The notes under the pieces are model-generated. The model was not told the origin of the DNA. It was given only the letters and a program-made list of their open reading frames with translations, and did not search any database. Of a stretch of 49,935 bases of DNA, positions 5,254 to 22,743 are shown one piece after another (position 1 is the stretch's first letter; each line of letters starts with the position of its first letter). The translations under genes and the position numbers were made by a program. This DNA comes from Natronolimnohabitans innermongolicus JCM 12255 (GTDB lineage Archaea; Halobacteriota; Halobacteria; Halobacteriales; Natrialbaceae): positions 24,598-74,532 of the forward strand of contig NZ_AOHZ01000084.1 in the NCBI RefSeq assembly GCF_000337215.1, read 5' to 3'.

Positions 5254-6804
5254 ATGAATTTCGTCGATACCTTCACTCGAACCGTTCGACGGCACGGGTC
5301 GGACACGGCGATCGTCTCCGACGACGGACGGTCGATGACATACGAGGATCTTGACGATCGCACTACTCGACTCGCGAATGCCATAGACGAGCGCGTGCCG
5401 GAGCAGCGGGTGGCCACGCTCGCTATCAACGGGCCGGCCGCGATCGAGACGATGATCGCGAGTCAGAAACGCGGGATCGGCAACGTACAGCTTCCGTTCC
5501 GCGACAGTCCGGGCGGGCTGGTCGCGATGCTCGAGCCGACCGATGCGTCCCTCCTCGTCTTCGACGACGCGAACGCGGAGAAGGCCCTCGAGGTCCTCGA
5601 TCGAACGGAGATCGACGTGGGGATCCACGCTGGGGAGCGGTCGATCGAACACGACGCCGTCGAACCCTACGACGTCGTTCTCTCGGACGCCTCGACAGAC
5701 GCCGTCGAGACTCATCCCGACCACGAACACGGCGTCTTCTACACCAGCGGCACGACGAGTACGCCGAAGGCCGTGCTCTTCGATCAGGAACAGCTCTGGC
5801 ACGGGAGCACCCAGGTCATCATGGAGATGGGGATCGACGAGACGGATACGGCGCTGGTCACGACGCCGTGGTATCACATGGTGACGTGTGACGCCTGGAT
5901 CCTGCCCCACATTCAGGCCGGCGCGACGCTGGTCGTCCAGTCCGATTTCGACCCCGACGAGGCGCTCCAGCTCGTCGACGAACACGACGCGACGGGCGCG
6001 CTCGCCGTCCCGACCCAGCTCCACGCGCTCGCCGACTGCCAGCGCGAAAACGAGTACGACATCGAGACGCTCTCGTATATCCGGACCGGCGGTTCGATCG
6101 TCACGGAAGCGCTCGTCGAAAAGGCCGCCGAGCACCTGACCCGCGGCGTCTACAACACCTACGGGCTGACCGAAGGCGGTCCGAACCTGACCTTCGCCCA
6201 CCCGTGGGTACAGGACGAGCACACGGGTTCGATCGGCAAGGAATCGTTCGTCTCGGAGGTGCGCGTCGTCGAGGCCGCCGAGCCGGACGAAGATCCGGAT
6301 CCGAACGCGACCGTCGATCCGGGGGAATCGGGCGAAATACTCGTCCGCGGACCCGGAACCTGCAACGGCTACATGGACCGCCCCGAGGAGACCGACTGGT
6401 TGCTCGTCGAAGACGAGTGGGTCCGAACCGGCGACGTCGCCGAGGTCGACGAGGACGGCTTCCTCTACATCACCGGCCGCGTCGACAATATGATCGTCAG
6501 CGGCGGCGAGAACATCTATCCCGAGGAAGTCGAGGAGGCGATCGAGACCCACGACGGCGTCGACGAAGCCGTCGTGCTCGGCCTCGAGGACGAGGAGTGG
6601 GGCCACCGCGTCGCCTGCGTCGTCTGTACCGAAGACGACGGGCTCTGCGAGGACGACCTGGATCAGTTCTGCAAGGACCACGACGAACTCGCGGACTTCA
6701 AGCGGCCGCGCGAGTACGTGGTCGTGATCGAGGGCTCGCTGCCACGAACCGATACGGGGACCATCGAACGAGAGACCGTCCACCTCGAGTACTTCGCCGA
6801 GTAG
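5254..6804 (+). CDS. AMP-dependent acyl-CoA (possibly aryl-CoA) ligase
   Basis: A 516-residue adenylate-forming enzyme. The phosphate loop reads Y-T-S-G-T-T-S-T-P-K-A, the adenine motif Y-N-T-Y-G-L-T-E, the hinge W-V-R-T-G-D-V-A-E-V, and the C-terminal domain has S-G-G-E-N-I-Y-P-E-E-V-E-E. The terminal catalytic segment is L-P-R-T-D-T-G-T-I-E-R, where the lysine usual before the I/F is replaced by Thr, a change worth noting. The reaction would be acid + ATP + CoA to acyl-CoA. It stands alone upstream of a metallo-beta-lactamase-fold gene on the same strand (64-bp gap). It could activate an aromatic acid for the cluster to the right, but the sequence does not fix the substrate. Confidence 0.85.
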   Translation: MNFVDTFTRTVRRHGSDTAIVSDDGRSMTYEDLDDRTTRLANAIDERVPEQRVATLAINGPAAIETMIASQKRGIGNVQLPFRDSPGGLVAMLEPTDASLLVFDDANAEKALEVLDRTEIDVGIHAGERSIEHDAVEPYDVVLSDASTDAVETHPDHEHGVFYTSGTTSTPKAVLFDQEQLWHGSTQVIMEMGIDETDTALVTTPWYHMVTCDAWILPHIQAGATLVVQSDFDPDEALQLVDEHDATGALAVPTQLHALADCQRENEYDIETLSYIRTGGSIVTEALVEKAAEHLTRGVYNTYGLTEGGPNLTFAHPWVQDEHTGSIGKESFVSEVRVVEAAEPDEDPDPNATVDPGESGEILVRGPGTCNGYMDRPEETDWLLVEDEWVRTGDVAEVDEDGFLYITGRVDNMIVSGGENIYPEEVEEAIETHDGVDEAVVLGLEDEEWGHRVACVVCTEDDGLCEDDLDQFCKDHDELADFKRPREYVVVIEGSLPRTDTGTIERETVHLEYFAE

Positions 6805-7597: not shown

Positions 7598-8986
7598 ATG
7601 TCAGTGAGTGACTTGTTCAACCCCGACGGTATCGCGGTCGTTGGCGCCTCCGCGACCCCGGGGAAAATCGGCTACGAAGCCATGCAGAACGTAATCGAGT
7701 TCGACGGGCCGGTGTACCCGGTCAACCCGTCCGCATCGGGGTCGGTCTTCGACCGCGAGTTCGTCTCCGCCGTGACCGAAATCGACGGTGACGTCGATCT
7801 GGCGCTGTGTTGCGTTCCGGCGCCGGTCGTCCCGGACGTGATCGAAGAGTGCGGCGAGGCGGATATTGGCGGCGCAGTCATCTTCGCCGGCGGCTTCGGC
7901 GAGGCCGGACCCGAAGGGCAAGAACTGCAGGACCGACTCGTCGACGCCGCGACCGAGGGCGACGTCGCCTTGCTCGGGCCGAACACGAGCGGCTTTCTCG
8001 TCCCCGAGGAGCAACTGTACGCGACGTTCGCAACCGACATCGACACCATTCCGTCCGGCAACGTCGCGGTCGTCGCCCAGAGCGGCGGCCTCGCTTACGC
8101 GATCGCCTTCCAGGCGGAAAACGAGGGCGTCGGCGTCTCCGCGATGGTCGGCCTCGGCAATCGCGCCAACGTCGGCTTCGAGGAGGCCATCGAGTACTTC
8201 GACACCGATCCGAAGACGGATTCGATCATCCTCCACGTCGAGGGGACCGACGACGGTCGCGGCCTCCTCGAGACCTGCCAGCGCGTCGAGACCCCGGTCG
8301 TCGCCTACAACGTCGGCGAGCAGGACGTCGGCGACTTCGCCGAATCGCACACGGGCGCGCTGACGGGCGAGTACGAACTGTACGAGGCCGGCTTCGCCCA
8401 GTACGGCGTTCCGACGGTCCGCTCGTCGACCGAACTCCTCGACGCCGGCACCGCACTGGCCTCGAGTCCGCGACCCGACGGCCCCAACGTCGGCGTCGTC
8501 ACCGCACAGGCCGGCCCGGGGATCGCCATCACCGACCGCCTCAAGGCCGCGGGCGCGACCCTTCCGTCGCTCACCGAAGAGACCCAGGAGATCGTCGAGG
8601 AGATCCTCCCCGGCATCACGTTCTCGGCGAACCCGGTCGACACCGGCCGTCCCATGCCGGAGTTCGGGGAAGTCGTCGACGCCGTCGCCCGCGACGAGAA
8701 CGTCGACATCGTCCTCGTCTACGAACTCTACGAAGGCGGCCTCGGCTATCCGACCGACGACCTCGAGGGACTCGTCGACGACGTCGACAAACCGATCGTC
8801 TTCGCCAGCGGCGGCCCTCGAGAGATCATCACCGAGGAGTTGGCCGAACTCGAGGCGATCGGGATTCCGACGTTCACGGCCCCCGAGCGTGCGGCCGACG
8901 CCGTCAGTGCGCTCGTCCAATACGCGAAGCGAAACGCCGAGCCAGACGCGGTCGTCGCCGGCGAGGAGGTGAGCGCCGATGACTGA
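7598..8986 (+). CDS. ADP-forming acyl-CoA synthetase (acetate-CoA ligase), alpha subunit
   Basis: A 462-residue protein with an N-terminal CoA-binding Rossmann domain (G-I-A-V-V-G-A-S at about 11-18), followed by two succinyl-CoA-synthetase-like ligase domains. The phosphohistidine is predicted to be His251 in A-E-S-H-T-G-A-L. The enzyme couples acyl-CoA + ADP + Pi to acid + ATP + CoA, giving substrate-level ATP at the end of acyl-CoA catabolism, or acts in reverse as an activating ligase. The beta subunit starts 8 bases before this gene ends. Length and split organisation match Pyrococcus-type ACD enzymes, while the characterised haloarchaeal enzyme (Haloarcula marismortui) is a fusion. Acyl specificity is not readable. 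Confidence 0.9.
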   Translation: MSVSDLFNPDGIAVVGASATPGKIGYEAMQNVIEFDGPVYPVNPSASGSVFDREFVSAVTEIDGDVDLALCCVPAPVVPDVIEECGEADIGGAVIFAGGFGEAGPEGQELQDRLVDAATEGDVALLGPNTSGFLVPEEQLYATFATDIDTIPSGNVAVVAQSGGLAYAIAFQAENEGVGVSAMVGLGNRANVGFEEAIEYFDTDPKTDSIILHVEGTDDGRGLLETCQRVETPVVAYNVGEQDVGDFAESHTGALTGEYELYEAGFAQYGVPTVRSSTELLDAGTALASSPRPDGPNVGVVTAQAGPGIAITDRLKAAGATLPSLTEETQEIVEEILPGITFSANPVDTGRPMPEFGEVVDAVARDENVDIVLVYELYEGGLGYPTDDLEGLVDDVDKPIVFASGGPREIITEELAELEAIGIPTFTAPERAADAVSALVQYAKRNAEPDAVVAGEEVSADD

Positions 8987-9698
8987 CATATCAGGAATCG
9001 GACGCAGCGTCCTCGAGACCGCCCGCGACGAGCAACGAACCGCGCTGACCGAAGCCGAAGCGAAGGGGCTGCTCGCCGAGCGGGGCCTGTCGGTTCCCGA
9101 CCACGAGACGGTCGACTCGCCGGAGGCGGCCGTCGAGGCCGCAGAGGAGATCGGCTACCCCGTGGTCGCAAAGGTCTCCGCCCCGTCGGTCCAGCACAAA
9201 AGCGAGTGGGGCGGCGGCGTCGGCGTCGCCGTCGGCCTCGAGAACCCCGAATCAGTACGGACGGCCGCGGCGGACATCTTCGACGCCGCCAACGGTGCGG
9301 GGATCGACGCCTCGGTGCTCGTCGAGGAAGGGGCCGACCTCGAGGCCGGCCTCGAGGTCATCGTCGGCGGAACGCGCGATCCGTCGTTCGGCCCGACCGT
9401 CCTCGTCGGCCTCGGTGGGATCACCGTCGAGGTGCTCCAGGATACGAGCCACCGAATCGCGCCGGTCTCGACCGCGGAAGCCGTCGAGATGACCCGCGAA
9501 CTCGAGGCGTCGCCGCTGTTCGACGGCTACCGCGGCTCCCCGGCGGTCGATCGCGAGGCGGTCGCCGAGGCGATCGTCGCCGTCGGCGACGTCCTCGACG
9601 AGCACGAGTCGATCCGCGAGATCGAGATCAATCCGCTGCTGGCAGAGTCGGATCGAGCGGTAGCGCTCGACGCGCTCGTCTCGCTCGACGACGACTGA
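8979..9698 (+). CDS. ADP-forming acyl-CoA synthetase, beta subunit (ATP-grasp)
   Basis: A 239-residue ATP-grasp domain protein. Typical features are E-A-K-G-L-L-A-E-R-G-L-S near the start, G-Y-P-V-V-A-K-V-S-A-P-S-V-Q-H-K-S-E in the nucleotide-binding part, G-P-T-V-L-V-G-L-G-G-I in the centre and R-E-I-E-I-N-P-L-L near the end. It binds ADP/ATP and completes the alpha subunit, with which it overlaps by 8 bases; translational coupling is likely and would secure equal amounts. Length is the usual one for separate beta subunits (about 230 residues). Confidence 0.9.
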   Translation: MTDISGIGRSVLETARDEQRTALTEAEAKGLLAERGLSVPDHETVDSPEAAVEAAEEIGYPVVAKVSAPSVQHKSEWGGGVGVAVGLENPESVRTAAADIFDAANGAGIDASVLVEEGADLEAGLEVIVGGTRDPSFGPTVLVGLGGITVEVLQDTSHRIAPVSTAEAVEMTRELEASPLFDGYRGSPAVDREAVAEAIVAVGDVLDEHESIREIEINPLLAESDRAVALDALVSLDDD

Positions 9699-9936: not shown

Positions 9937-10815
9937 TTACTCGTCCTTCTGGCTCTTCTCGACGTCGACGTCCTCGAAGGCGACGTCGCGCTCGGAGACC
10001 TCGACGGTCATGGCGCCGACGTCTTCGATCTCGGCCTCGATGGTGTCGCCGTCGGAAAGCGGGCTGACGCCCTCGGGCGTCCCGGTAGTGATGACGTCGC
10101 CGGCCTCGATCGTCGCGCCGATGGAGGCGTACTCGACGATGTCGGCGCAGCTGTAGATCATGCCGCCGGTGTTCTGTTGCTGTTTGGTCTCGCCGTTGAG
10201 CTGGAGTTCCATCTCGAGGTCGTGGGGGTCCTCGAACTCGTCGGCCGTCGTGACGCAGGGGCCGATAATGGTGAACGTGTCGTAGGACTTGCGGTTCGAG
10301 CGGTCCTGGTCGCCGCGGACGGAGACGTCGAGCAGGATCGTGTAGCCGAGCACGGCGTCCCAGACGTCGTCGGCGTCGATGTCTTTGACGTCTTCGCCCA
10401 TGACGAAGGCGAGTTCGATCTCGTGGTCGACGCGGCGGTCGTTGAAGGGCAGTTCGATGCCGTCCTCGGGACCGGCGACGCTCGAGGGGGCCTTGAGGAA
10501 GTAACCCTTGTCCTCGATGGTGAACCACTCCTCGGTGACGATGTCCTTGTCGGCGAGGGCCTCTTCGACGTGGTTCTCGTAGTTCAGCGGCGCGGCGATG
10601 ACCTTACCGGGCCGGCGGACGGGGGACTCGATGGTGACCTCCTCGCGGTCGTAGTCGGGGTCGTCGTCCGCGTACTCGCTCGCGTCGAGGTCCTTGCGAG
10701 CGTACTCCTTGAGCGGGTCGTTCGTCTCGAGACCGAGGTCGTCGGTGACGTCGACGATGCCGTCGTCGTCGGTCAAGAGCCCGAGTCGATCGTCGTTGAA
10801 TCTGACGAGTCGCAT
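9937..10815 (-). CDS. FAH family hydrolase (fumarylpyruvate/maleylpyruvate hydrolase candidate)
   Basis: A 292-residue fumarylacetoacetate-hydrolase-superfamily protein. The metal ligands are Glu132 and Glu134 in V-D-H-E-I-E-L-A and Asp163 in G-Y-T-I-L-L-D-V-S; the C-terminal G-D-V-I-T-T-G-T-P-E-G-V motif is clear. These enzymes cut C-C bonds of acylpyruvates or decarboxylate keto acids. With a gentisate-dioxygenase-like gene nearby, cleavage of fumarylpyruvate or of maleylpyruvate to pyruvate plus a C4 acid is the best guess. The start at 10815 is set by the TATA-like box CATAAA (10840-10845, minus strand TTTATG) 27 bases away, so the mRNA is probably leaderless. An N-terminal extension of nine codons is possible. 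Confidence 0.88.
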   Translation of the reverse strand: MRLVRFNDDRLGLLTDDDGIVDVTDDLGLETNDPLKEYARKDLDASEYADDDPDYDREEVTIESPVRRPGKVIAAPLNYENHVEEALADKDIVTEEWFTIEDKGYFLKAPSSVAGPEDGIELPFNDRRVDHEIELAFVMGEDVKDIDADDVWDAVLGYTILLDVSVRGDQDRSNRKSYDTFTIIGPCVTTADEFEDPHDLEMELQLNGETKQQQNTGGMIYSCADIVEYASIGATIEAGDVITTGTPEGVSPLSDGDTIEAEIEDVGAMTVEVSERDVAFEDVDVEKSQKDE

Positions 10816-11035
10816 GATAGCAACACCGCGATCCGACCACATAAATCATCCTCTCTCGGTCGCGGGTGTCGAAAAAATAGTGAAGGTTTCGTGCGCGGAG
10901 ACGTCTCGCCGGGCCGGCAACGAGCGCCCGAGAAGCGACACGGCGGCCGCGTTCAGACGGACGGACGACTGACCTCCGTTCCGACACGACCGCGACCACC
11001 CTGGGCCGTGTAAGGTATCGGTACAGCAGCCCGTC

Positions 11036-11218
11036 TCAGTCGCCGGCAGCGATCTGATCATCGAAGACGTCCGCCGAGTCGAAGACGCTGCGACAGTCTT
11101 CACACACCATCTGTTTGTCGATCGCGTACTCCCAGAGTTTGCCGCCACAGTCCAGACAGTCGAAGTGTGCCCGGACGAACGGACTGTGCTCGGCGTAGGG
11201 GTTCTCGAACTCTGCCAT
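11036..11218 (-). CDS. Small zinc-ribbon protein (60 aa)
   Basis: A short acidic protein with two C-x-x-C pairs, C-L-D-C-G-G and C-E-D-C-R-S, separated by about 16 residues, that form a single zinc ribbon. The start at 11218 follows a TATA-like stretch (minus strand TTTATTG, about 27 bases upstream), and the longer open frame upstream has no supporting signal. Such mini zinc-finger proteins are common in haloarchaea and some control motility, biofilm or lipid synthesis, but no function can be given for this one. It sits between the FAH hydrolase and the gentisate dioxygenase gene, all on the minus strand, which could mean a regulatory or complex-forming role in the ring-cleavage cluster. Confidence 0.75.
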   Translation of the reverse strand: MAEFENPYAEHSPFVRAHFDCLDCGGKLWEYAIDKQMVCEDCRSVFDSADVFDDQIAAGD

Positions 11219-11361
11219 ACGCGTACGATACGGCTTCCGATCAATAAAGTATTCCCCATGTCGCCGTTCTCGCCGGTTCGGCGTGGCGACTCGAGGTCGA
11301 ACCCGAACACCAAAAACGGCGACGGCGCGGTCGACCGCGAAGCGGGCGGCGACGGTCGGCG

Positions 11362-12447
11362 TTACTCGCTGGGCGCCGATTCGGCGTAGAAATTGAACGC
11401 CTCGAACACCGGTCGGTCGGTCATGCCGAGCAGGATCGCTTCCTCGCCGTCGGGCTCGTGGCTGTGGAGTTCGTTCGGCGGGACCACGAAGATGTCCCAC
11501 TGGCTCCACTCGAGCGTTTCGTCGCCGACGTGGGTCGCGCCCTCGCCCTCGATGACGAAGTAGACCTCGGTGGCGTTGTGGAAGTGGGTCTCGGTGGCCT
11601 CCTGGAGCAACTGGGCGCGAAACGACATCGTCGGGAACAGCGGCGGCTGGCCGTTGGTCGGGTTGACGTAGGCCATGCTGTAGCCGTCGTAGGGGTCCGG
11701 CGTGTTGTTGTCCGCGCGCTGGCGCAGCGTCCGGACGGTCTCCTCCCAGCTGAAGCGGTGTGGCGGCGTCGGGTCACGGATGCCCTCGAACGGCCCCGGA
11801 ATGCCGTCGTCTTTCGACTCGTCGGCCGGACGGGCCTGGCCGAACTGGGAGTCCCAGTAGCCCTGGGTCTTGGTGACGGGCTGGCGCTCGAGTTCGTGGT
11901 TCTCGAAGACGTTCGAGGAGTTCAGCGAGTCGAGCACGAGCGGCAGGTCGAGGACGTCGAGCCACATCGCCGTCTCGTCGGAGTCGTTGACGTGGTCGTG
12001 CCACTCCCACTGTGGCGTCGTGATCAGGTCGTTGTTCTCCATCGGGAACTCCTCGCCCGCGACGACGGTTTTCATGTCCTCGTGGCCGTCGATGGTAAAG
12101 CGCAGGGCGTTGGCCCCGTGGCGGTGCGAGGGGGCCGTCTCACCGGGCGAGACGGTCTGGACGCCGAGGTAGATCGTGTTCGAGATCGCGTTCTCCATCC
12201 CGGTGTTGATCGGGACGGCGACCCGGCGCTGGAATCCCGGCGGGAGCTCCTCGATCGGCATGTCCTCCTCGACGTTGTCGATCGTCTCCTTGATGTCCGC
12301 CCACTTCCAGATGTCCGGCTGCAGGTCGTCGTAGACGTTCCCCATCGTCTTCTCGACTTCCCACAGCGGCCGAAGGTCGTTCTCCTCGAGAAGGTCTCGA
12401 GTCTCCGAAGTCAGTTCTATACGCTCTTCGGGGTCCTGCTGAGCCAT
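11362..12447 (-). CDS. Gentisate 1,2-dioxygenase-like bicupin
   Basis: About 361 residues with two cupin domains. The first has the iron-binding pair His108/His110 in A-P-S-H-R-H-G-A-N-A-L-R-F, exactly the pattern of gentisate 1,2-dioxygenases, and the second has E-T-H-F-H-N-A-T-E-V-Y-F-V in the C-terminal third. The enzyme opens the ring of gentisate (2,5-dihydroxybenzoate) with O2 and Fe(II) to give maleylpyruvate. The ATG at 12447 is chosen because CTTATGA on the minus strand (12472-12478) is 28 bases upstream; an ATG at 12474 is the longer alternative. Gentisate dioxygenase has been described from Haloferax, so the call fits the lineage. 1-Hydroxy-2-naphthoate or salicylate dioxygenase are related possibilities. 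Confidence 0.87.
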   Translation of the reverse strand: MAQQDPEERIELTSETRDLLEENDLRPLWEVEKTMGNVYDDLQPDIWKWADIKETIDNVEEDMPIEELPPGFQRRVAVPINTGMENAISNTIYLGVQTVSPGETAPSHRHGANALRFTIDGHEDMKTVVAGEEFPMENNDLITTPQWEWHDHVNDSDETAMWLDVLDLPLVLDSLNSSNVFENHELERQPVTKTQGYWDSQFGQARPADESKDDGIPGPFEGIRDPTPPHRFSWEETVRTLRQRADNNTPDPYDGYSMAYVNPTNGQPPLFPTMSFRAQLLQEATETHFHNATEVYFVIEGEGATHVGDETLEWSQWDIFVVPPNELHSHEPDGEEAILLGMTDRPVFEAFNFYAESAPSE

Positions 12448-12540
12448 AGTGGTATTTTCGGCAAGAATCATCATAAGTGTGTTGGAGAGTCCCGCAGCGA
12501 AGGAGCCCGCGTCGAGATCTGCCGCGGGAAGCGAGGGCCG

Positions 12541-13419
12541 CTACAGGAACGTCTCAGTCCGCGTCGTCTCGTAGCCGTCCGTCATCGCGTCGAAGGCCTC
12601 GTCGACCGCGTCGACGTCCCACCCGTCTTCGGCGACGGCGGTTCGGATCTGCCGTGGCTCCGAGAGGATCCCGATCTCGTCGCCTCGCGCCGTCACGGTG
12701 ACGCCGGTGACGTCGTCTGCCGCCTCGCTCAGCAGATACGCCGCGGCGGGCGCGACCTTCTCGGGAGGCATCTCCTCGCGCGTGTACGGGCGGTGTTCCT
12801 CCGGTACCGACTCGGTCATGCGCGTGTAGCCGTTGGGAACGAGCGCGTTGACGCGAACATTCTGCCGGTCCAGTTCCGACGAAGCCGCGCGGACGAACCC
12901 CAGAATCCCGGCGTTCGCGCTCGCGTAGGCGAGCTGGCCGACGTTGCCGAGCGCGCCCCTCGAGCTAACCGCCAGAAACGACCGTTCGGAGTCGTCGTCC
13001 ACGTCGCGCCAGTGCGTTACGGCGCTGCGAAGCAGTGTGAAATTACTCCGAAGGTGCGTTCGAACGACGTCGTCCCACTCCTCGTCGGAGAGCGACCACG
13101 ACATGCCGTCGCGCAGGATGCCCGCGAAGTTCGCGATCCCGTCGAGTCGGTCGAACGACTCGAGTGCGGTCTCGATCGCCGCCGCGGCGTCGTCGGCGTC
13201 GGCCGCGTCGCCGAAGTGGGCGACCGCGGTAGCGTCGTCGACCTCAGCGTCGATCGCTGCGGCGGTTTCCTCGGCCGCATCCGGGTCCGATCCCGAGCCG
13301 TCGACCGTCGTTCCCAGATCGGAGACGACGACGTTGGCGCCGTCTTGCGCGAGTTCGCGCGCAGTCGCCTCGCCGAGGCCGTGTGCGCCGCCGACGACGA
13401 GGTACGCCGGCGCCGTCAT
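12541..13419 (-). CDS. SDR family oxidoreductase with atypical active site
   Basis: A 292-residue Rossmann protein with the nucleotide motif G-G-A-H-G-L-G-E-A at residues 10-18, catalytic Ser152/153 and Tyr165 in L-A-Y-A-S-A-N-A-G. The lysine normally four residues after the Tyr (Y-x-x-x-K) is Asn169, encoded by AAC, although the flanking residues match the family. It would be an NAD(P)-dependent dehydrogenase or reductase of a hydroxy or keto group, perhaps on a hydroxyacyl or cyclohexadienol intermediate. It lies upstream of the gentisate dioxygenase on the same strand with a 93-bp gap. The loss of Lys may mean altered chemistry or a binding role. The ATG at 13419 is the only strong start. 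Confidence 0.83.
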   Translation of the reverse strand: MTAPAYLVVGGAHGLGEATARELAQDGANVVVSDLGTTVDGSGSDPDAAEETAAAIDAEVDDATAVAHFGDAADADDAAAAIETALESFDRLDGIANFAGILRDGMSWSLSDEEWDDVVRTHLRSNFTLLRSAVTHWRDVDDDSERSFLAVSSRGALGNVGQLAYASANAGILGFVRAASSELDRQNVRVNALVPNGYTRMTESVPEEHRPYTREEMPPEKVAPAAAYLLSEAADDVTGVTVTARGDEIGILSEPRQIRTAVAEDGWDVDAVDEAFDAMTDGYETTRTETFL

Positions 13420-13640
13420 GGCTCACCTCCGTCCGTACTCGAGCGATTGCAGTCGGCGGTCGTCCGTTCGTCGTGCGTTTCCGCGTCGGGATGTGCGACC
13501 ATGCGCCACCGTACGAGCGCGTGACTAATCACGATTTGGCTACGCGTCGTCGGATCGACGTCGAGCGACGCATCGATTCGGATTACAACGACCGGCAACA
13601 AATGGAATGGATTTACATAGACCTGGTACGAACTACGGGT

Positions 13641-13964
13641 ATGGTACTCGAGACGGACTTAGAGGACGTCGCAGCGAAACACGACGATCTGCCGGCAGCA
13701 GATGACGTCTACGACGAAGACGAAGCGATCCCCATCGAGGAGGTCTTCGACGACGCCTTCGTCGCGGCGAAGACCGACTTCGAGAGCTTCGACGAACTGG
13801 TCGCAGCCAGCCCGAGCGAGGCCGACTCGGCCGCGGACCTCGAGAAGGTCCCCCACCGCGAGTGGAACGAGTTCATCGCCGAGAACAGCGAGTTCGATAG
13901 CGAGCGGGAGTTCGTGTTCGCCGGCCGCGACCACTGGGTCGCCAAGCAACTGGACCTGGCCTGA
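13641..13964 (+). CDS. Small acidic protein of unknown function
   Basis: A 107-residue, very acidic protein that I do not recognise. The start at 13641 is favoured because the TATA-like TTTACATAG (13612-13620) lies about 26 bases upstream; the longer frame upstream has poor codon use. The sequence has blocks such as D-V-Y-D-E-D-E-A-I-P-I-E-E-V-F-D and ends with R-E-F-V-F-A-G-R-D-H-W-V-A-K-Q-L-D-L-A. No membrane segment or cysteine is visible. It is encoded on the strand opposite to its neighbours, between the SDR and FAD monooxygenase genes of the ring-cleavage cluster. Confidence 0.65.
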   Translation: MVLETDLEDVAAKHDDLPAADDVYDEDEAIPIEEVFDDAFVAAKTDFESFDELVAASPSEADSAADLEKVPHREWNEFIAENSEFDSEREFVFAGRDHWVAKQLDLA

Positions 13965-14132
13965 ACAGCCGCTTTTCCTTCGGAATTCGTCGAAGTGTGC
14001 TGCGACGAGAAGCGAACGCGTCGGCGCGTCGTCTCGCCGGCGCTCGAGTGAGCGCCGTTCCGCGAGCGATAGCGACGGCTGGCCGTCGATAGCCGAATCG
14101 AAAAAGCGCGTTCGAACGGCGATCCGCCCGGT

Positions 14133-15368
14133 TCAGTAGTTTCCGGTCGAGACGATCGGCGGGCCCTGGTGGGGACCGTACGGCGCGTCGTCGAGCCACT
14201 CGCCGGCGACCTCGAAGTGGTCGGACATCTCCGCTGCGACTTCCTTGCGGAGCACCGTCACCGGGTCGTCGCCCTGGAGGTACTCGAGCGCCTGCCCGGC
14301 GGCGCCGATGTTGTACTCGGCAGCCGTCTCGCGGCGGGCGGCGAACAGTTCCACTTCGTCGTGAGCGACGGCTTCAGTCTGCGCGTCGAGCGCCACCGAG
14401 ATGGCCGATGCGGCCTCGTCGGCGTCGGGGACGCCGGAGTTCATCCCGCGGGCGCCAAACGGCGCGAGCAGGTGGGCGGCCTCGCCGGCGAGCAGGACGC
14501 GCCGGTGTTCGTCGATGAACGTGTCGGCCTGAACCTGCAGGAAGTGGTACGTCGAGACCCACTTCAGCTTGTCCTCGTACTCCTCGCCCATGATGTCGCG
14601 GACGAACTCTCGCATCTGCTCCTCGCCGCTGAGTTCCTCGGGGTCGTCGTCGCCGATACACTGGATGTCGAGGCGCCAGCCGCCGGTGAACGGAACCAGC
14701 AGCACGTTTCGACCGTCGGCCTCGGGCGCGTCGTAGTGAAACATGCGCTCGAGGTCCGGGTGGTCGTCGTCGATCTCCTCGTCCTCGACGTCAGCGATGA
14801 TGAAGGCGTTCTCGGACTGGTCGCCCTCGAAGTTCGCGCCGATCTCCTTGCGAACCTGCGAGCCGCCGCCGTCCGCGCCGATCAGGTACTCCGTCTCCCA
14901 CTCGCGACCGTCGCCGGTCTCGACAGTGACGCCGTCCGGCGAGGAGTCGACGGAGACGACCTCGGACTCCCAGTGGATCTCGATGCCGGCCTCCTCGAGG
15001 GCCTCGAGCATGTACTGTTCGGTGACGACCTGCGGGACGCTGGTAAAGTGCGGAATGTCACCGGAGCCGCCGGGGGAATCGTACGTCCGGTTGAACACTT
15101 CCTTGCCCTTGTACAGCGTCCGTCGGGTCGGCCAGACGAGTCCTTCCTCGACGAGGTCCGTGCCGAGGCCGGGGTGGATGCGCTCGAACGTCCGCAGCGT
15201 CGCACCGTGGACGTAAATCGCGCGGCTCCCGTCTCGGTCCCGGTCTTCCGGTTCCGCCTCGAGGATCGCCGTGTCGATTCCGCGCGCGTTCAGTGCCAGT
15301 GCTGCGGTCATGCCGACTGGTCCTGCGCCCGCGACCAGAGCCGGCTTGTCTGTCGTGTTTCCGCTCAT
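14133..15368 (-). CDS. FAD-dependent aromatic monooxygenase
   Basis: A 411-residue flavoprotein of the p-hydroxybenzoate hydroxylase group. The dinucleotide motif G-A-G-P-V-G is at residues 14-19, the D-G motif is seen in Y-L-I-G-A-D-G-G-G-S-Q-V-R, and the second FAD motif reads V-L-L-A-G-E-A-A-H-L-L-A-P-F-G-A-R-G-M-N-S-G, with Glu for the usual Asp. These enzymes hydroxylate aromatic rings with NAD(P)H and O2. Near a gentisate dioxygenase, a hydroxylase producing gentisate (from 3-hydroxybenzoate or salicylate, or acting on an aroyl-CoA) is a reasonable guess. The minus-strand ACTATGAC near 15391-15398 is a TATA-like box about 27 bases before the ATG, so the gene probably has its own leaderless promoter. 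Confidence 0.88.
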   Translation of the reverse strand: MSGNTTDKPALVAGAGPVGMTAALALNARGIDTAILEAEPEDRDRDGSRAIYVHGATLRTFERIHPGLGTDLVEEGLVWPTRRTLYKGKEVFNRTYDSPGGSGDIPHFTSVPQVVTEQYMLEALEEAGIEIHWESEVVSVDSSPDGVTVETGDGREWETEYLIGADGGGSQVRKEIGANFEGDQSENAFIIADVEDEEIDDDHPDLERMFHYDAPEADGRNVLLVPFTGGWRLDIQCIGDDDPEELSGEEQMREFVRDIMGEEYEDKLKWVSTYHFLQVQADTFIDEHRRVLLAGEAAHLLAPFGARGMNSGVPDADEAASAISVALDAQTEAVAHDEVELFAARRETAAEYNIGAAGQALEYLQGDDPVTVLRKEVAAEMSDHFEVAGEWLDDAPYGPHQGPPIVSTGNY

Positions 15369-15602
15369 GGTGGGCAGTGACGGACCACGGTGTCATAGTA
15401 GTTGTGGTCGTCCACCGATGGGCGTTCTATATGTGACGTTGTTCGACTAGATTTCTCGTAGTATTACAGTGCACGTCCAGGGAGACAGCGACAGCCCCCC
15501 TGACAGTTCGAAGATAGTCGACTGCGACCGACAGACGCGCGGGGCGTTTCCCCACAGCGAACAGGTAGTGACGAGCGCCAACACGGGGAAGCCAACGGTC
15601 GG

Positions 15603-16184
15603 TCAGTCCCTGTCCGCTGGCGGCCGCTGGACGAGCGTAACGAGCGGTTCCTCCAGTGGGAGCGCCATCTCGAGGTCCATGACGTTCGTGCTGGTGACGT
15701 CGAATCCGACCTTCTCGTAGACGGTGATCGCCTGTTTGCGCTCTCGGGCGACGTTGAGGTGGAGTTCCTCGTGATTTCGGTCGGCAGCGTGAGCGACGAC
15801 GTGCTCTAACAGTTCCGTCCCGATGCCGCGGTTCTGGTAGTCGGGGTGGACGAAAATCACGAACTCCGGTTCCGACGCGCTCGCGGGGGCGACGGCGACG
15901 TGACCCACGATTCGGTCGTCACAGATCGCGACTAGATTCCAGCCGTCGGCCGTGAGCTGTCGAAGCCACGTCTCGCGAGCGTCGGGATCGGAGGGCGGGA
16001 GCGCCATCGTCGACGTCTCGACGGCGTCGTACATCGCGAGCAGCGACTCCAGTGAATCGTCTTCGTAGGGACGGATCAGGACAGGGGTACCCGTCTTGTC
16101 GATATATCGGGGACAGCGCGGCGGACAGTGCTTCGTCCCCTCGCAGTTGGAGTTGTCCCAGCCGCGACACGCGTTCGATGCCAT
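15603..16184 (-). CDS. GNAT N-acetyltransferase with cysteine-rich N terminus
   Basis: A 193-residue protein. The first 25 residues hold four cysteines (C-R-G-W, N-C-E-G, H-C-P-P-R-C-P-R) that could bind zinc. From about residue 30 a GNAT fold follows, with the acetyl-CoA loop Y-Q-N-R-G-I-G-T-E-L-L and the late motif Y-E-K-V-G-F. Substrate is unknown. The ATG at 16184 is supported by the minus-strand TATTTTG about 27 bases upstream; the longer frame before it lacks support. It stands alone between the monooxygenase and the maleate isomerase gene, which is divergent from it. Confidence 0.83.
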   Translation of the reverse strand: MASNACRGWDNSNCEGTKHCPPRCPRYIDKTGTPVLIRPYEDDSLESLLAMYDAVETSTMALPPSDPDARETWLRQLTADGWNLVAICDDRIVGHVAVAPASASEPEFVIFVHPDYQNRGIGTELLEHVVAHAADRNHEELHLNVARERKQAITVYEKVGFDVTSTNVMDLEMALPLEEPLVTLVQRPPADRD

Positions 16185-16422
16185 AGTAGCTAGTCCCTCG
16201 CGTCTCCCGCAAAATAGTCCGGCGAGAATGCCCAGTCGCTGGGAAGACCGTCGACAGTTGTCAGTCACGATCGGAGAGATCCGGTTCGTTCACGGGAAAC
16301 CGCAGCGGTCAGATTCGAGGTGCGAGGACGGTCACGTTCGGCGAGAGCCCAGGTAAGACGGTTTTACGCGTCGCAACCGACGGAACGGTTTACCCGATCG
16401 ATCCCGTGTCTCTGGTCAGACC

Positions 16423-17178
16423 ATGACCGATAGCTTCCGGGTCGGCCTGATCGTCCCGAGTTCGAACGTCACCATGGAGACGGAGATTCCGGCGATGATC
16501 GACGCGCGGCCCGACCACCTCGGCGAATCGTTCACGTTCCACTCGAGTCGGATGCGGATGCAAAGCGTCACGCAGGAGGAACTCGAGCGCATGGACGCCC
16601 AGTCCGAAGAGTGTGCGACCCTGCTCTCGGACGCACACTGTGACGTGCTCGCGTACGCGTGTCTGATCGGCATCATGGCCCAGGGGCCGGGCTACCACGA
16701 AGAGAGCGAAGCGAAACTCCGCCAACGGACCGCCGAGAACGACGCCGAGGCACCCGTCGTCACCAGCGCCGGCGCGCTCGTCCGCGCGCTCGAGCGACTG
16801 GACGTCGAGGAGGTCGCCCTGATCGCCCCTTACGTCGAAGAGCTCACGCAGACGGTGATCGAGTACTTCGAGAGCGCGGGCGTCGACGTCGTCGACTACG
16901 AGACGCTCGAGTGTCCCGACAACCTCGAGGTGGCACAGCTCGATCAGCGAAACCTCGTCGAGATCGCCGACGGACTCGACACCGACGACGCCGACGCGCT
17001 AGTGCTCTCCTCGTGCGTCCAGATGCCGTCGCTGGTCTCGATTCAGGCCGCCGAGGACCGCTTCGGCCTGCCCGTCTTCTCGGCGGCGACCGCAACGACC
17101 TACGAAATATTCGACGAGCTCGGCCTCAGCACGCAGGTTCCGAGCGCGGGACGGCTCCTCGACGGGGGACTCGACTGA
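16423..17178 (+). CDS. Maleate cis-trans isomerase / Asp-Glu racemase superfamily
   Basis: A 251-residue protein. It has the two catalytic cysteines of maleate isomerases and arylmalonate decarboxylases, Cys80 in A-Y-A-C-L-I-G and Cys198 in S-S-C-V-Q-M-P-S, and the early binding motif V-P-S-S-N-V-T-M-E-T-E at residues 11-21. Maleate isomerase converts maleate to fumarate. In this cluster it could process the maleate produced if maleylpyruvate is hydrolysed directly, feeding the citric acid cycle. A nicotinate-type pathway also uses this enzyme, but no other nic genes apart from a distant M29-like protein are seen. A weak TATA-like GGTTTACC lies about 35 bases before the ATG. Confidence 0.86.
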   Translation: MTDSFRVGLIVPSSNVTMETEIPAMIDARPDHLGESFTFHSSRMRMQSVTQEELERMDAQSEECATLLSDAHCDVLAYACLIGIMAQGPGYHEESEAKLRQRTAENDAEAPVVTSAGALVRALERLDVEEVALIAPYVEELTQTVIEYFESAGVDVVDYETLECPDNLEVAQLDQRNLVEIADGLDTDDADALVLSSCVQMPSLVSIQAAEDRFGLPVFSAATATTYEIFDELGLSTQVPSAGRLLDGGLD

Positions 17179-17668
17179 CGGCGAAACAGTGAGGGCGAAA
17201 CGCACGCCGGTCCGGACCGATAATCGGTTACAACCCGTATAGCGGATTACAACAGACGTTATTTTCCCATTATAAGTTACATCCACCCACCCAAACCCAT
17301 AGTTAATTTATTATTGTAATAATTAGCCGGCATACGGGTGACTATCCCTGGTCCCCATCGACCAAGTCGCCGATGAACGTCCAATTTTTACAGTCATACA
17401 CACGTATGGTCTCGACGAGAGTTCAGAAACTGTGCCGTGTAGCGTTCAGTTACCAACTAAATGAGGGTCCAATACGTTGTTACCACGAGAAACCGGGCGC
17501 ATCAGTTCCGTCCCGTCGAAAATCGAACCTCAGCCGGCCGGACGCGGGCTCGAAAGCGACTGCGTAGACGGAATCGGTTGCCATCTCGTCCGTCGCTGAA
17601 CGGATCGGTTCGCCCGTCGATTTGATGTGAGCAAAAGAGTATTCAGATTCGAGGCCGTCCCTCGACAC
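17179..17668. other. Intergenic region with AT-rich palindrome
   Basis: About 490 bp without a believable gene. It contains two near-identical direct repeats (CGGTTACAAC about 17224-17233 and CGGATTACAAC about 17242-17252), an AT-rich stretch 17255-17330 with a perfect 6-3-6 dyad TTATTA-TTG-TAATAA at 17308-17322, and, at the right end, the operator and promoter of the IclR gene. Confidence 0.45.
17621..17635. promoter_or_regulatory. Candidate IclR operator 1, TTTGAT-N3-AGCAAA
   Basis: TTTGATGTGAGCAAA differs by one base from the palindrome TTTGATGTGATCAAA. It lies directly upstream of a TATA-like stretch (17636-17644) and 34 bases before the ATG of the IclR gene, which points to autoregulation. 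Two further copies are at 18471 and 18628. Confidence 0.65.
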
Positions 17669-18475
17669 ATGGGTACGGATAACGAGCCGCGACGGATTCA
17701 GTCGGCCGACAGAGTCTGTGACATCCTCGAGCACTTACGCGAGACGGAGTCCGCGACGGTTTCCGAAGTGGCCGACGCCGTCGGCCTGTCGCCGGGGACC
17801 GCACACACGTACCTCTCGACGCTCGAGTCACGCGGGTTCGTCCGGAAACACGACGACGTCTATCGCCTCGGCCTCGAGTTGCTGCCCTACGGCGATCAGG
17901 TCCGGTTACAAAACGACCTCTACCGAGCGGCCACCGAAGAGATCCATCGACTGGCCCACGACAGCGACGCCTGCGCCCACCTGATGACCGAGTACGACGG
18001 GCGGCTGCTCATCTTCCAGGAGTCGTTCGGCGAGAACGCGATCGGGATGGACTTTCACCCCCGAAAGCGCGAACGACCCCAGTCGATGCTCCACTGCACC
18101 GCCGCCGGGAAGGCGATTCTCGCGCACATGCCGGACTACCGCGTCGCCCAGATCATCGAAACGCACGGCCTCGCTTCCTACACCTCCTCGACGGTCACCG
18201 ACGAAGCCGAACTCGCCGCCGAACTCGAGCAGATCCGAGAACGGGGGTTCGCGCTGAACGACCAGGAGCAGATGCGCGGACTCCGGGCAGTCGGCGCGCC
18301 GATTCGCTACGACGGCGAGCACGTCGTCGGCGCCGTCAGTCTCTCGGGCGGAGCGAGCAACTGGAGCGGCGAACGCTTCCGGCAGGAACTCCCCGAAAAA
18401 GTCATGCGTGCCGCCAACGCTATCGAAGTGAATCTTCACTCGGAGCTAAGCGGGACGGAACGGCCGTTCGTTTGA
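17669..18475 (+). CDS. IclR family regulator of module A
   Basis: A 268-residue IclR protein: winged helix-turn-helix at about residues 10-68 (recognition region L-S-P-G-T-A-H-T-Y-L-S-T-L), then a ligand-binding GAF-like domain with H-C-T-A-A-G-K-A-I-L-A-H. The ATG at 17669 gives the normal N terminus and agrees with a TATA-like region about 27 bases upstream. Three copies of a TTTGAT-N3-ATCAAA type palindrome flank it, one before the gene, one covering its own stop codon and one before the amidohydrolase gene. This makes it the likely regulator of the amidohydrolase-Rieske operon that follows, and of itself. Confidence 0.9.
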   Translation: MGTDNEPRRIQSADRVCDILEHLRETESATVSEVADAVGLSPGTAHTYLSTLESRGFVRKHDDVYRLGLELLPYGDQVRLQNDLYRAATEEIHRLAHDSDACAHLMTEYDGRLLIFQESFGENAIGMDFHPRKRERPQSMLHCTAAGKAILAHMPDYRVAQIIETHGLASYTSSTVTDEAELAAELEQIRERGFALNDQEQMRGLRAVGAPIRYDGEHVVGAVSLSGGASNWSGERFRQELPEKVMRAANAIEVNLHSELSGTERPFV

Positions 18476-18642: not shown

Positions 18643-18743
18643 TCAACGTCGAGAGAACCTGAAGCACGTATATTTAGCTGGTGGTACGGGAAATCGGTTC
18701 CCGAGACCACAGGCCTATGTATACCCCCACCCGATGTTGGGTC

Positions 18744-19862
18744 ATGCTCGAGTCAGACGAGAGTCGACGACGAGAGGAGACCCTGGACAAATACCACGTC
18801 ATCGACGGCGACTGTCACTACATGGAGTCGTTCCACGACGTCGCCGAGTACATGGAAGAGCCCTGGAAGACGAAGTTCGAAGGGAGCAACTTCGACGAGA
18901 AGGGCGCCAAGCAGAACCTCAGTTCGTTCTTCCCGTTCTCGACCGGCGACCGACAGGCCCACGGCAAGGTCACCCGCGAACACTCCTCGTACCCCGACGA
19001 CCCCGAAACGCCCGAGCGCATCCGCGAGGGCATGGAAGCGATCGGCGTCGACGAGACGCTCCTGATTTCGCACCTGATTCTCGCCGGCGCGGGGACGACC
19101 GCCGACGACGACCGCCAGAGCGCGTTCGCCAAGGCGTATATCGAGTACATGCTCGAAGAGGTCCTCGACCCCGACGACGGCATTCACGGGCTCGCCCCCA
19201 TCCCCTACGGCGACGTCGAAGCCTCGATGGAGATCCTCGACCGCGTCGAGGACGAGGACGCCTACGTCGGCGCCTGTTTCGTCACCGCCGGCGCGACGCC
19301 GCCACTCGGCAACCGAAAGTACGATCCGCTCTACGAGCGGTGTGAGGAACTCGGCCTCCCCGCCGTCTTCCACACCGGCGGCGCCGGCCTCGACGAGTAC
19401 GTCCGCGCGGGCTACCAGGAGATGATCGAGACGCACACGCTCGGCTTCCTCGAGTCGAACATGTCCCAGATCGTCAGTCTCGTCATCCAGGGCGTGCCGG
19501 AGAAGTTCCCCGACCTCGACATCGTCTTCATGGAGTCGGGCATCACCTACATCCCGGGCCTGATGACGCGCCTCGACGAGGAGTACCTCAAGCGACCCGA
19601 AGAGGCACCGCTGCTCGAGAAAAAGCCCGGTGAGTACATCACTGACTTCTACTACGGCACCCAGCCCCTCGAGATTTCGGCCGACACGGAGTACCTCGAG
19701 AAGTGTTTCGACATGGTCGGCACCGATAGCCTCATGTACGCCTCGGACTACCCGCACTGGGACTACGACCGTCCGACGACTGTCACCGACCTCCCGTTCC
19801 TCTCGGAGGACGAAAAGAAACAGATCCTCTCCGAAAACGCCAAAGAGGTGTTCGACCTATGA
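18744..19862 (+). CDS. Amidohydrolase family 2 protein (module A)
   Basis: About 372 residues with the amidohydrolase-2 TIM-barrel pattern seen in ACMSD and gamma-resorcylate decarboxylase relatives. The N-terminal metal site reads D-G-D-C-H-Y (Asp23, His25), with Cys between them; a barrel His is in V-F-H-T-G-G-A, and the last metal Asp is in Y-A-S-D-Y-P-H-W-D. Members hydrolyse C-N or C-O bonds or decarboxylate aromatic acids without oxygen. The start is uncertain: ATG 18744 is preferred, ATG 18717 is nearer to the TATA-like box at 18668-18676. It overlaps the Rieske gene by ATGA. The gene order is repeated in module B at 31.5-34.2 kb on the other strand. Confidence 0.85.
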   Translation: MLESDESRRREETLDKYHVIDGDCHYMESFHDVAEYMEEPWKTKFEGSNFDEKGAKQNLSSFFPFSTGDRQAHGKVTREHSSYPDDPETPERIREGMEAIGVDETLLISHLILAGAGTTADDDRQSAFAKAYIEYMLEEVLDPDDGIHGLAPIPYGDVEASMEILDRVEDEDAYVGACFVTAGATPPLGNRKYDPLYERCEELGLPAVFHTGGAGLDEYVRAGYQEMIETHTLGFLESNMSQIVSLVIQGVPEKFPDLDIVFMESGITYIPGLMTRLDEEYLKRPEEAPLLEKKPGEYITDFYYGTQPLEISADTEYLEKCFDMVGTDSLMYASDYPHWDYDRPTTVTDLPFLSEDEKKQILSENAKEVFDL

Positions 19863-20236
19863 GCGCCGAGGAACTCATCGAAGTGAAAGCCGCCGACGCG
19901 TTCGACGACGGCGAACGAGAGATCGTCGAGGTCAACGGTGCGGAAGTCGGCGTTCTCCGCGTCGACGGAGAATACCACGCCGTGCGAAACCGGTGTCTCC
20001 ACGACTGCGGTCCCGTCGCCGAGGGCGCCGTCGGCAAGAAACTCGTCGGCGAATTCGTCGAACCCGGGAAACGCGTCGAGAAGGACTACGACGGCGACCA
20101 ACCGATCATCTCCTGTCCGTGGCACGGCTGGTCCTACGACCTCGAGACCGGTGAACAGCTCGCGGACGACGACATCGTCCTCCCAACCTACGACGTCGTC
20201 GTCGAAGACGGGATCGTCTACGTCGCAAACGAGTAA
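19859..20236 (+). CDS. Rieske [2Fe-2S] protein with enlarged inter-motif loop (module A)
   Basis: A 125-residue soluble Rieske domain. Cluster ligands are Cys46 and His48 in R-C-L-H and Cys86 and His89 in S-C-P-W-H-G-W. The distance between the two motifs is 37 residues, against about 15-17 in usual Rieske ferredoxins, and a further Cys50 sits right after the first motif. No signal peptide or membrane segment is visible, so it is cytoplasmic and probably carries electrons to or from a partner enzyme. It is coupled by ATGA to the amidohydrolase gene; the same pairing recurs at 31.5-33.0 kb. A redox partner for an amidohydrolase is not expected from known chemistry. Confidence 0.88.
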   Translation: MSAEELIEVKAADAFDDGEREIVEVNGAEVGVLRVDGEYHAVRNRCLHDCGPVAEGAVGKKLVGEFVEPGKRVEKDYDGDQPIISCPWHGWSYDLETGEQLADDDIVLPTYDVVVEDGIVYVANE

Positions 20237-21172: not shown

Positions 21173-21255
21173 TATATTCTGACTTTTTAACCAATATAAT
21201 AAGTATGATGTGATAGTTAGCATAATATAAACTCCGACATATGATCGGTGTTTTT
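21173..21255 (+). promoter_or_regulatory. Promoter of the first YjiH-like gene, conserved in its duplicate
   Basis: From TATATTCTGAC (21173-21183) to the gene, this stretch aligns without gaps to 23336-23418 upstream of the second copy. It holds a TATA-like AATATAAAC (21223-21232), the block GTGATAGTTA and an imperfect dyad around CATATG (CCGACATATGATCGG at 21235-21249). The segment 21234-21260 is identical in both copies. Confidence 0.55.
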
Positions 21256-22743
21256 ATGACCCATGGGACGATTTGTCGAGCTATGTTCGGCAGTCAGAGC
21301 TGGGAGGATGACGATCACATATCCGGTGAGTCAGTCACACCGGACGAGAAAGAAATCGATGACGTCGATTTCGTCGAGAAGGGGTGGAAACCGACGCTAA
21401 AGTTCATCGCCGCGTTCACAATCGGCGCGTTCGTCTTCCTGCTTCCCGTTCAGTACGAGGGGCAGACGACGATTCCGCTGGACGTAATGATGAACGAAAT
21501 TCAGGCGTTCTCGATGACCGCCGTCGAGATCTTCGCGTTCGCGCTGATCGCCGGCGGTGCAGTCCTGACGACGGTCTCGGAACTGCATTACCGCGGCGTC
21601 ATCAACGTCAGCGAGAACACCGAGCAAACGCTTCAGCTCGATTACTGGCAGACTACGGCGCCGTTCTGGCTCTTTCGAGTCGCGGGGCTCTTCCTCGCCT
21701 CGGCGATCCTTCTCGGCGCCGGACCGGAGTGGTTGATCGGTGATGCGGTCACCAATACTGCCTGGAGCGCGCTCGTGATCACCGTCGCGCTCGTGATTCC
21801 GCTCGGCGCGATTTTCGTGAACCTGCTCGCCGAACTGGGCGGTCTCCAGTTCGTCGGGACGCTCGCCCAGCCGATCATGCGCCCGCTGTTTAACCTTCCC
21901 GGACGATCGGCACTCGACAGTGCAGCGTCCTGGCTCGGTTCGTTCAGTATCGGGTACTACCTCACGCGCAACGTCTTCGACCGCGGTGGCTACAACAAGC
22001 GGGAAGTGTTCGTAATCTGTACGTGCTTCGCGACGGCGAACCTGGGGACTGTGGGGGCGGTCGCAGCCATCCTCGACATCCTTCACATCTTCCCGCTCGT
22101 CGTCTTGCTGTACGTTATCGCGACACTCACCGTCGCCGCGATCCTCGTTCGCATCCCGCCGCTTTCGACCATCCCCGAGGAGTACATCGCTGAGCCAAGC
22201 CCGGAGCCGCAGTTCACCGGCACCGTCGGCGACTACTTCCGCTTCGCGTTCAACGAAGGCGTGCGTACGGCAAAGGAAGGCGATTCGATCCTCCGATCAG
22301 CCGTCGTCGGCTTCATCGACGGCGTCAAGCTGTCCGGAATGATCATCGGTACGGTGCTCACGATCGCGATGGCCGTTCTCATCATCGAAGAGAACTCCGC
22401 AGCCTTCGAGTACCTCGCCGCACCGTTCGTTCCACTGATGACCATTCTCGGGATTCCTGACCCAGAAGCGGCCGCAGTCGGTATCATCCTCGGCGGCGCG
22501 GAGTACTTCATCGGAGCAATCTACGTCGTGGAAGCCGACCTCATGACGAAGGTCTTCGTCGTGATCGTCACCAGTGCGCAGGCGATTTTCTTCGCCGCGT
22601 CCGCACCGATGATGGTCGACATGTTCGACGACATCCCGATGCGATTCCGTGACCTGCTGCTCCTGTTGATCCTCCGGACCGCACTCCTCATCCCTATCGC
22701 CGCGGTTCTGACCCACGCTGTGGCATACCTGGGACTCATCTAA
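21256..22743 (+). CDS. YjiH-like nucleoside-recognition (Gate) domain membrane protein, copy 1
   Basis: About 495 residues, with an acidic cytoplasmic head (E-D-D-D-H-I-S-G-E-S) and roughly ten or more membrane segments. The Gate-type features are visible in W-L-G-S-F-S-I-G-Y-Y-L-T-R-N-V-F and Y-N-K-R-E-V-F-V-I-C-T-C-F-A. It resembles the YjiH family, whose transport role is unproven. I start at ATG 21256, about 28-30 bases after the TATA-like box; an in-frame ATG at 21241 would add five residues. Synonymous differences between the two copies begin after 21260, which agrees with coding from 21256. It is the left member of a tandem duplication with 23419-24906. Confidence 0.8.
   Translation: MTHGTICRAMFGSQSWEDDDHISGESVTPDEKEIDDVDFVEKGWKPTLKFIAAFTIGAFVFLLPVQYEGQTTIPLDVMMNEIQAFSMTAVEIFAFALIAGGAVLTTVSELHYRGVINVSENTEQTLQLDYWQTTAPFWLFRVAGLFLASAILLGAGPEWLIGDAVTNTAWSALVITVALVIPLGAIFVNLLAELGGLQFVGTLAQPIMRPLFNLPGRSALDSAASWLGSFSIGYYLTRNVFDRGGYNKREVFVICTCFATANLGTVGAVAAILDILHIFPLVVLLYVIATLTVAAILVRIPPLSTIPEEYIAEPSPEPQFTGTVGDYFRFAFNEGVRTAKEGDSILRSAVVGFIDGVKLSGMIIGTVLTIAMAVLIIEENSAAFEYLAAPFVPLMTILGIPDPEAAAVGIILGGAEYFIGAIYVVEADLMTKVFVVIVTSAQAIFFAASAPMMVDMFDDIPMRFRDLLLLLILRTALLIPIAAVLTHAVAYLGLI

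Follow-up and report, generated by a model that had tools for sequence, protein, structure and literature searches.

How haloarchaea complete the breakdown of gentisate appears to be unsettled in the literature that was searched. The question is raised by a stretch of 49,935 nucleotides from Natronolimnohabitans innermongolicus JCM 12255 (contig NZ_AOHZ01000084.1), here called the window. It carries genes for a gentisate 1,2-dioxygenase-like (GDO-like) bicupin, a hydrolase of the FAH superfamily and a homologue of maleate isomerase. An earlier note on this DNA, made from the sequence alone, had suggested that these three genes specify a thiol-independent lower gentisate pathway ending with maleate isomerase. 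With some reserve, we favor the view that gentisate breakdown at this locus proceeds by direct hydrolysis of maleylpyruvate, yielding maleate and then fumarate, with each step a prediction. The GDO-like enzyme would, as its family suggests, convert gentisate to maleylpyruvate, and the FAH protein would cut this directly into pyruvate and maleate, bypassing fumarylpyruvate; both steps would be available in all 45 haloarchaeal genomes having the GDO-like gene. In eight of these genomes maleate isomerase would, by homology, convert maleate to fumarate through a covalent cysteine adduct, without a diffusible thiol.

The three enzymes of the locus

All three genes are confirmed as open reading frames. 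The FAH-superfamily hydrolase is encoded at 9937-10842 on the reverse strand, and its likely start is at 10815, since the alignment with PDB entry 6jvv opens at an internal methionine. The protein matches PF01557 with 181.6 bits. Its best match of known structure is 6jvv, the maleylpyruvate hydrolase of Sphingobium SYK-6 (168 bits); among the fumarylpyruvate hydrolases, 4maq reaches 71 bits and 6j5y 56 bits. A profile built from 38 relatives scores 6jvv at 268 bits versus 150 for 6j57, 130 for 4maq and 112 for 6j5y. The AlphaFold2 model, with a mean predicted local distance difference test score (pLDDT) of 83.9, lies nearest to 6jvv and 6jvw (Z 34.0, root-mean-square deviation 1.6-1.9 over 247-252 residues), followed by YisK (Z 31.9) and the fumarylpyruvate hydrolases 6j57 (29.4), 6j5y (24.9) and 4maq (24.8). 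The residues E141, E143, D172, H91 and E94 are invariant in the alignment and presumably provide the acidic metal site and the His-Glu roles. Judged by sequence and by predicted fold, the maleylpyruvate hydrolase is a nearer relative of the protein than the fumarylpyruvate hydrolases are, a comparison among solved structures only, of which HbzF is not one. These features, together with the phylogenetic profile described below, lead us to predict a maleylpyruvate hydrolase.

The GDO-like gene is located at 11362-12474 on the reverse strand, with a likely start at 12447. The best match of its product in the PDB is 2d40, a putative GDO. The score with TIGR02272 is 211.6 bits, below the equivalog cut-off of 442.1, and the model for 5-aminosalicylate 1,2-dioxygenase gives 215.6 bits against a cut-off of 650. 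It is because the protein falls below both cut-offs that we call it GDO-like. The resemblance to gentisate dioxygenases noted earlier therefore stands for the family, to which alone the bicupin is assigned on sequence, and not for the gentisate and 5-aminosalicylate models. An excerpt of PMC4585797 cites characterized haloarchaeal GDOs from Haloferax D1227 and Haloarcula D1.

The third gene (16423-17178, forward strand) encodes a protein of the maleate cis-trans isomerase type. It matches PDB 4fq7 with 256 bits (E 2.3e-75, residues 5-249), and also 4fq5 (252 bits), 2xec (219 bits) and 2xed, while arylmalonate decarboxylases reach at most 33 bits. Both catalytic cysteines, C80 and C198, are present as first noticed, C198 standing opposite an alanine of chain 4fq5, which is otherwise near-identical. 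A nine-row alignment that includes bacterial isomerases of the nicotinate type and others shows no variation at C80 and C198 or in the motifs PSSN, YACL and SxCVQMPS. There is thus a strong case from sequence that this is a true relative of maleate isomerase, predicted to convert maleate to fumarate. Its closest solved relative belongs to the maleate isomerases of nicotinate and nicotine degradation (NicE, Iso, NdpH; 4fq7), with which it has both cysteines and the motifs in common. The nicotinate pathway differs in its upstream genes, a maleamate amidase and a 2,5-dihydroxypyridine dioxygenase, whereas here these are GDO, FAH and an amidohydrolase-related dinuclear oxygenase (ARO). Unlike the nicotinate-type enzymes, those of haloarchaea fall outside the clades of bacteria as a separate set in a quick tree, in which the outgroup branch is very long and the placement of one sequence (L195) is unsure. 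Because of this position their use looks like a separate recruitment, and a bacterial origin of the role was set aside.

Distribution of the genes in haloarchaea

The GDO-like gene is present in 45 of the 292 haloarchaeal genomes surveyed. Orthologs of the FAH hydrolase, recognized at E <=1e-60, occur in an identical list of 45 genomes and in none of the 247 others. In 46 of the 48 fetched loci both genes are separated by 43-8378 bp; the exceptions are one locus with its FAH gene about 26 kb off (L157) and another with FAH copies at contig ends (L170). A true maleate isomerase, for which at least 66% identity was required (all other matches, at 44% or less, being distant paralogs), is found in eight genomes. 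The earlier note had proposed looking for co-occurrence of the three genes, and this bears it out: GDO and FAH are present in every one of the eight isomerase genomes (hypergeometric P 1.8e-7), and in seven of seven when the genome of the window is removed (P 1.2e-6). These P values ignore phylogeny, apart from a count by genus, in which all seven isomerase genera fall inside the 22 GDO genera of 78 (P 6.5e-5). In this survey GDO is never without FAH, nor FAH without GDO, and maleate isomerase is confined to genomes with the pair.

Physical linkage is found in part of these genomes. The isomerase gene and GDO are no more than 10 kb apart in three of the eight, namely that of the window (G000), G255 and G256, and in G098 a second FAH copy is found some 3 kb away from the isomerase gene. 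On the Haladaptatus salinisoli plasmid NZ_CP085331, about 10 kb hold genes for a Rieske protein, an amidohydrolase, the isomerase, a transporter, a stress protein, an FAD/Fe-S protein, GDO, a small open reading frame and FAH; isomerase, GDO and FAH are at 97848-106406. A plasmid of Haloarcula sp. JP-L23 carries GDO, FAH, ARO and isomerase inside about 10 kb, and one of Natrinema sp. DC36 has isomerase, GDO and FAH inside about 26 kb. Overall, three of the four haloarchaeal plasmid records bearing the isomerase also carry GDO. Such named plasmid clusters could be transferred into Haloferax volcanii.

Enzymes known to isomerize maleylpyruvate were searched for in the same genomes, with controls that were positive in known carriers. 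None of the 45 GDO genomes has a protein over the cut-off for TIGR01262, the zeta-class glutathione S-transferase (GST) family, or for TIGR03083, the mycothiol-type family. The expectation that GDO occurs without GST-type or DinB-type isomerases thus holds for these two families, but not entirely for DinB_2 (PF12867), found in one of the 45 (G098) and in none of the 35 GDO-negative genomes searched. Likewise, the initial remark that no maleylpyruvate isomerase is seen can be extended to the whole genome of the window (4.59 Mb, completeness 99.8%): TIGR01262 and TIGR03083 give nothing over cut-off there, DinB_2 no match, and MDMPI_N (PF11716) one fragment below cut-off. Five matches to GST_N_3 exceed the cut-off in this genome. 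Four are glutaredoxin-sized open reading frames of 87-115 residues, while the fifth lies within a frame of 458 residues that is possibly a Xi-class GST. The 45 GDO genomes are thus essentially devoid of the known families of maleylpyruvate isomerase.

The lack of glutathione in haloarchaea, given earlier as a reason for a thiol-free route, does not serve as such, since an excerpt of PMC7278568 reports about 4 mM gamma-glutamylcysteine in these organisms. Therefore, the case rests on absent enzyme families and not on an absent thiol.

The haloarchaeal route, a variant of a pathway of a known kind, has good support from the genomes, and its enzyme activities are predicted. With the classic gentisate pathway it shares the same ring cleavage and an FAH-superfamily hydrolase, but zeta-GST and mycothiol isomerases over cut-off are lacking in the 45 GDO genomes and the FAH protein is far from the NagK type. 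With Pseudomonas alcaligenes NCIMB 9867 it shares a GDO step followed by direct hydrolysis of maleylpyruvate to pyruvate and maleate, which in that bacterium is established for HbzF. The differences are that P. alcaligenes has a specific maleate hydratase, reportedly HbzIJ with D-malate as product, where an isomerase forming fumarate is predicted here, and that the present host is an archaeon with no known isomerase branch alongside. Excerpts of two papers describe the formation of maleate in E. coli by HbzF with several GDOs (PMC5658364) and, for a marine bacterium, list HbzF beside NagK and NagL (PMC11705938). No paper joining maleate isomerase with an archaeal gentisate pathway was found, most subscription papers being beyond reach; of the papers searched, PMC8307300 alone contains both "maleate isomerase" and "haloarchaea". 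If our reading is correct, archaea of an entire class would have a thiol-free route by direct hydrolysis. The question can be tested directly, given that GDO and FAH are perfectly paired over 292 genomes and that hardly any known isomerase is present.

Fate of maleate and competing explanations

Several observations weigh against direct hydrolysis followed by isomerization. A pathway ending in maleate isomerase, as first suggested, is compatible with the eight genomes above but is not general, as the isomerase is missing from 37 of the 45 genomes with GDO and FAH. A HacA/LeuC-type hydratase candidate is not enriched either, occurring in 4 of the 45 GDO genomes versus 31 of the 247 others; these are counts among the matches listed with an identity of at least 37% to a protein from Bacillus that is encoded beside a maleate isomerase and is not HbzI. 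Isomerase and hydratase candidate are both lacking in 33 of the 45, so that those genomes would hold no known consumer of maleate. Either the 33 genomes have a different maleate consumer, or their FAH protein hydrolyzes fumarylpyruvate that an unrecognized isomerase supplies. Moreover, the isomerase gene is near neither GDO nor FAH in four of its eight genomes (G012, G057, G094, G289); a Halobellus locus (L002) has the isomerase with no GDO or FAH within 10 kb, and at a Halegenticoccus locus (L001) FAH accompanies the isomerase, with no GDO within 10 kb. As for the hydrolase, 6jvv is about 37% identical to it and owes the name "maleylpyruvate hydrolase" to its depositors, and substrate specificity within the FAH superfamily cannot be read from sequence. 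Finally, with gamma-glutamylcysteine present, an unrecognized thiol enzyme is conceivable.

Three other consumers of maleate were considered. The counts just given led us to reject maleate hydratase as a general one. Distant racemase paralogs (at most 44% identity) show a weak excess in GDO-positive genomes, 16 of 45 versus 45 of 247 (P 0.015); because of their low identity they were taken for relatives of the arylmalonate decarboxylase or EutA type and rejected as substitutes for the isomerase. Furthermore, a FAD/Fe-S protein of 1025 residues resembling D-2-hydroxyglutarate dehydrogenase is encoded in the window (28006-31083, forward strand) and in 21 of 46 GDO loci. It is conceivable that it is a D-malate oxidase; the GDO loci hold no accompanying hydratase for such a D-malate route.

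The strongest competitor, which we nevertheless regard as unlikely, makes the FAH protein a fumarylpyruvate hydrolase. Maleylpyruvate would then be isomerized by an unrecognized enzyme, perhaps dependent on gamma-glutamylcysteine, or by a non-homologous helper, and the maleate isomerase would belong to another branch. This would account for the 37 genomes with no maleate isomerase, 33 of them also with no HacA-type hydratase. A thiol is on hand, Xi-class GSTs are placed in haloarchaea by an excerpt of PMC6345682, and a zinc-ribbon-like protein with invariant cysteines, discussed below, accompanies GDO in every genome. However, the known isomerase families are nearly absent from the 45 genomes, the hydrolase resembles maleylpyruvate hydrolase more than it does the solved fumarylpyruvate hydrolases, and the strict nesting of the isomerase in the GDO set would have no explanation.

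There is a smaller chance that the isomerase serves another pathway yielding maleate or citraconate, from nicotinate or from the substrate of the ARO, and that its link with GDO reflects a shared lifestyle. In a bacterial comparison, we took the best 80 of 577 confirmed places of close isomerase relatives; two are haloarchaeal and 78 bacterial. Among the 78 bacterial loci, 34 are of the nicotinate type, and a gene for a LeuC-like hydratase is found in eight, of which one is also of the nicotinate type, beyond the 34. The window itself contains, about 31 kb from the isomerase, a gene for a NicX-like or M29-like protein (48295-49266, or by another delimitation 48334-49290, forward strand; 27% identity over 343 residues) adjoining a DUF3237 gene, and this could hint at a different source of maleate. 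In several haloarchaea, the isomerase gene stands beside ARO-Rieske genes and not beside GDO. Yet a search confined to the window with its flanks and to the remaining haloarchaeal loci fetched detected no NicF-like or NicD-like gene, ARO orthologs are found only in GDO genomes, and all eight isomerase genomes have GDO and FAH.

The alternative offered in the earlier note, in which the racemase-like protein itself isomerizes maleylpyruvate and the FAH protein cuts fumarylpyruvate, has hardly any chance of being correct: although the protein shares genomes and loci with GDO and FAH and cysteine chemistry would suit, it is disfavored because both cysteines stand in motifs that do not vary between this protein and bacterial maleate isomerases of the nicotinate type. 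In addition, 37 of the 45 GDO genomes have no such gene, and the maleate pocket of NicE is reported to be closed.

Two further groups of bacterial loci were observed. In 15 of the 78 (L014, L019, L039, L055 and 11 more, in sphingomonads, Woeseiaceae, Soonwooa and others), a GDO-like gene, FAH and the isomerase are clustered as in the haloarchaeal loci, always with a gene for a Nit6803-type nitrilase, and in L014 genes for tryptophan dioxygenase and kynureninase lie upstream of the trio. The nitrilase and this kynureninase suggest an amino-substituted ring; the bacterial trio probably handles such a ring, with cleavage giving an amide, and the clusters may perhaps represent an unrecognized route of the 5-hydroxyanthranilate type. 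They differ from the haloarchaeal loci, in which there are no nitrilase relatives, in FAH proteins that are about 33-38% identical and in isomerases of separate clades. In the Bacillus group (L004-L008, L010), the isomerase relatives adjoin LeuC/LeuD-like, CoA-transferase and HMG-CoA-lyase-like genes, which suggests citraconate/mesaconate chemistry.

Partner proteins and neighboring genes

Two new parts came to light, a zinc-ribbon-like protein and an ARO that are both linked with GDO and are currently annotated as "hypothetical protein" and "amidohydrolase family protein". The first is a protein of 60 residues encoded at 11036-11218 on the reverse strand. It belongs to no named family and is called zinc-ribbon-like because of two CxxC motifs alone. 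It is present in exactly the GDO-positive genomes (45 of 292), and its gene is on the same strand as GDO, at a distance of 42-266 bp, in 48 of 48 loci. Across 45 rows 22 columns are invariant. No Pfam family scored over cut-off, a sequence search of the PDB gave no convincing match, Foldseek with the predicted model (pLDDT 77) gave nothing at E <=0.001, and the fetched bacterial loci contain no relative. At L001:12907-13908 in Halegenticoccus tardaugens, FAH and a partial match to this protein stand beside the isomerase; this is perhaps a decayed cluster.

Most likely, the zinc-ribbon-like protein assists GDO, as an accessory protein or in its maturation. A bolder reading is that it is a protein-borne thiol. 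It could even be imagined, although we give this very little credence, that haloarchaea have a gentisate pathway of their own design: a dinuclear oxygenase with a Rieske ferredoxin would make gentisate, and GDO would have an obligate zinc-ribbon partner whose cysteines replace a diffusible thiol, either in ring cleavage or by offering a thiolate to maleylpyruvate. FAH would then cut the product and maleate isomerase would finish where maleate is formed.

The window has two ARO candidates, copy 1 at 18681-19862 (forward strand; PF04909) and copy 2 at 31909-33126 (reverse strand). Each is most similar to PDB 8sm7 and is adjoined by a gene for a small Rieske ferredoxin (PF00355), at 19859-20236 on the forward strand and 31541-31993 on the reverse strand, respectively. 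In an excerpt of PMC10811679, 8sm7 is an amidohydrolase-related dinuclear oxygenase, and AROs are defined likewise. On sequence, both copies agree with this definition, as PF04909 proteins with the small Rieske gene adjoining and characterized AROs as their nearest relatives, and are candidate AROs with a predicted dinuclear metal site and hydroxylase activity. Orthologs of copy 2 occur in 18 of 292 genomes, all 18 of them GDO-positive (P 8e-17), and in six of the eight isomerase genomes. We propose that the ARO feeds the gentisate pathway.

Other neighbors may also act upstream. An AMP-forming acyl-CoA ligase of the NF004837 family (5254-6804, forward strand) and a FAD-dependent aromatic hydroxylase (14133-15368, reverse strand; PF01494) are recurrent neighbors of GDO and would catalyze feeder steps. 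The alpha and beta subunits of an ADP-forming acyl-CoA synthetase (7598-9698, forward strand; TIGR02717 for alpha) are equally recurrent there. An IclR-family regulator (17627-18475, forward strand; PF01614, PF09339) adjoins the maleate isomerase gene. At about 13605-13964 on the forward strand, a small acidic protein with no Pfam family is encoded; it is found in 23 of 55 clustered loci, mostly adjoining the gene of the FAD hydroxylase, and is possibly its partner. Finally, tandem membrane proteins with nucleoside-recognition/gate domains (21241-22743 and 23404-24906, forward strand) recur beside maleate isomerase, ARO or GDO genes and are candidates for an aromatic-acid transporter.

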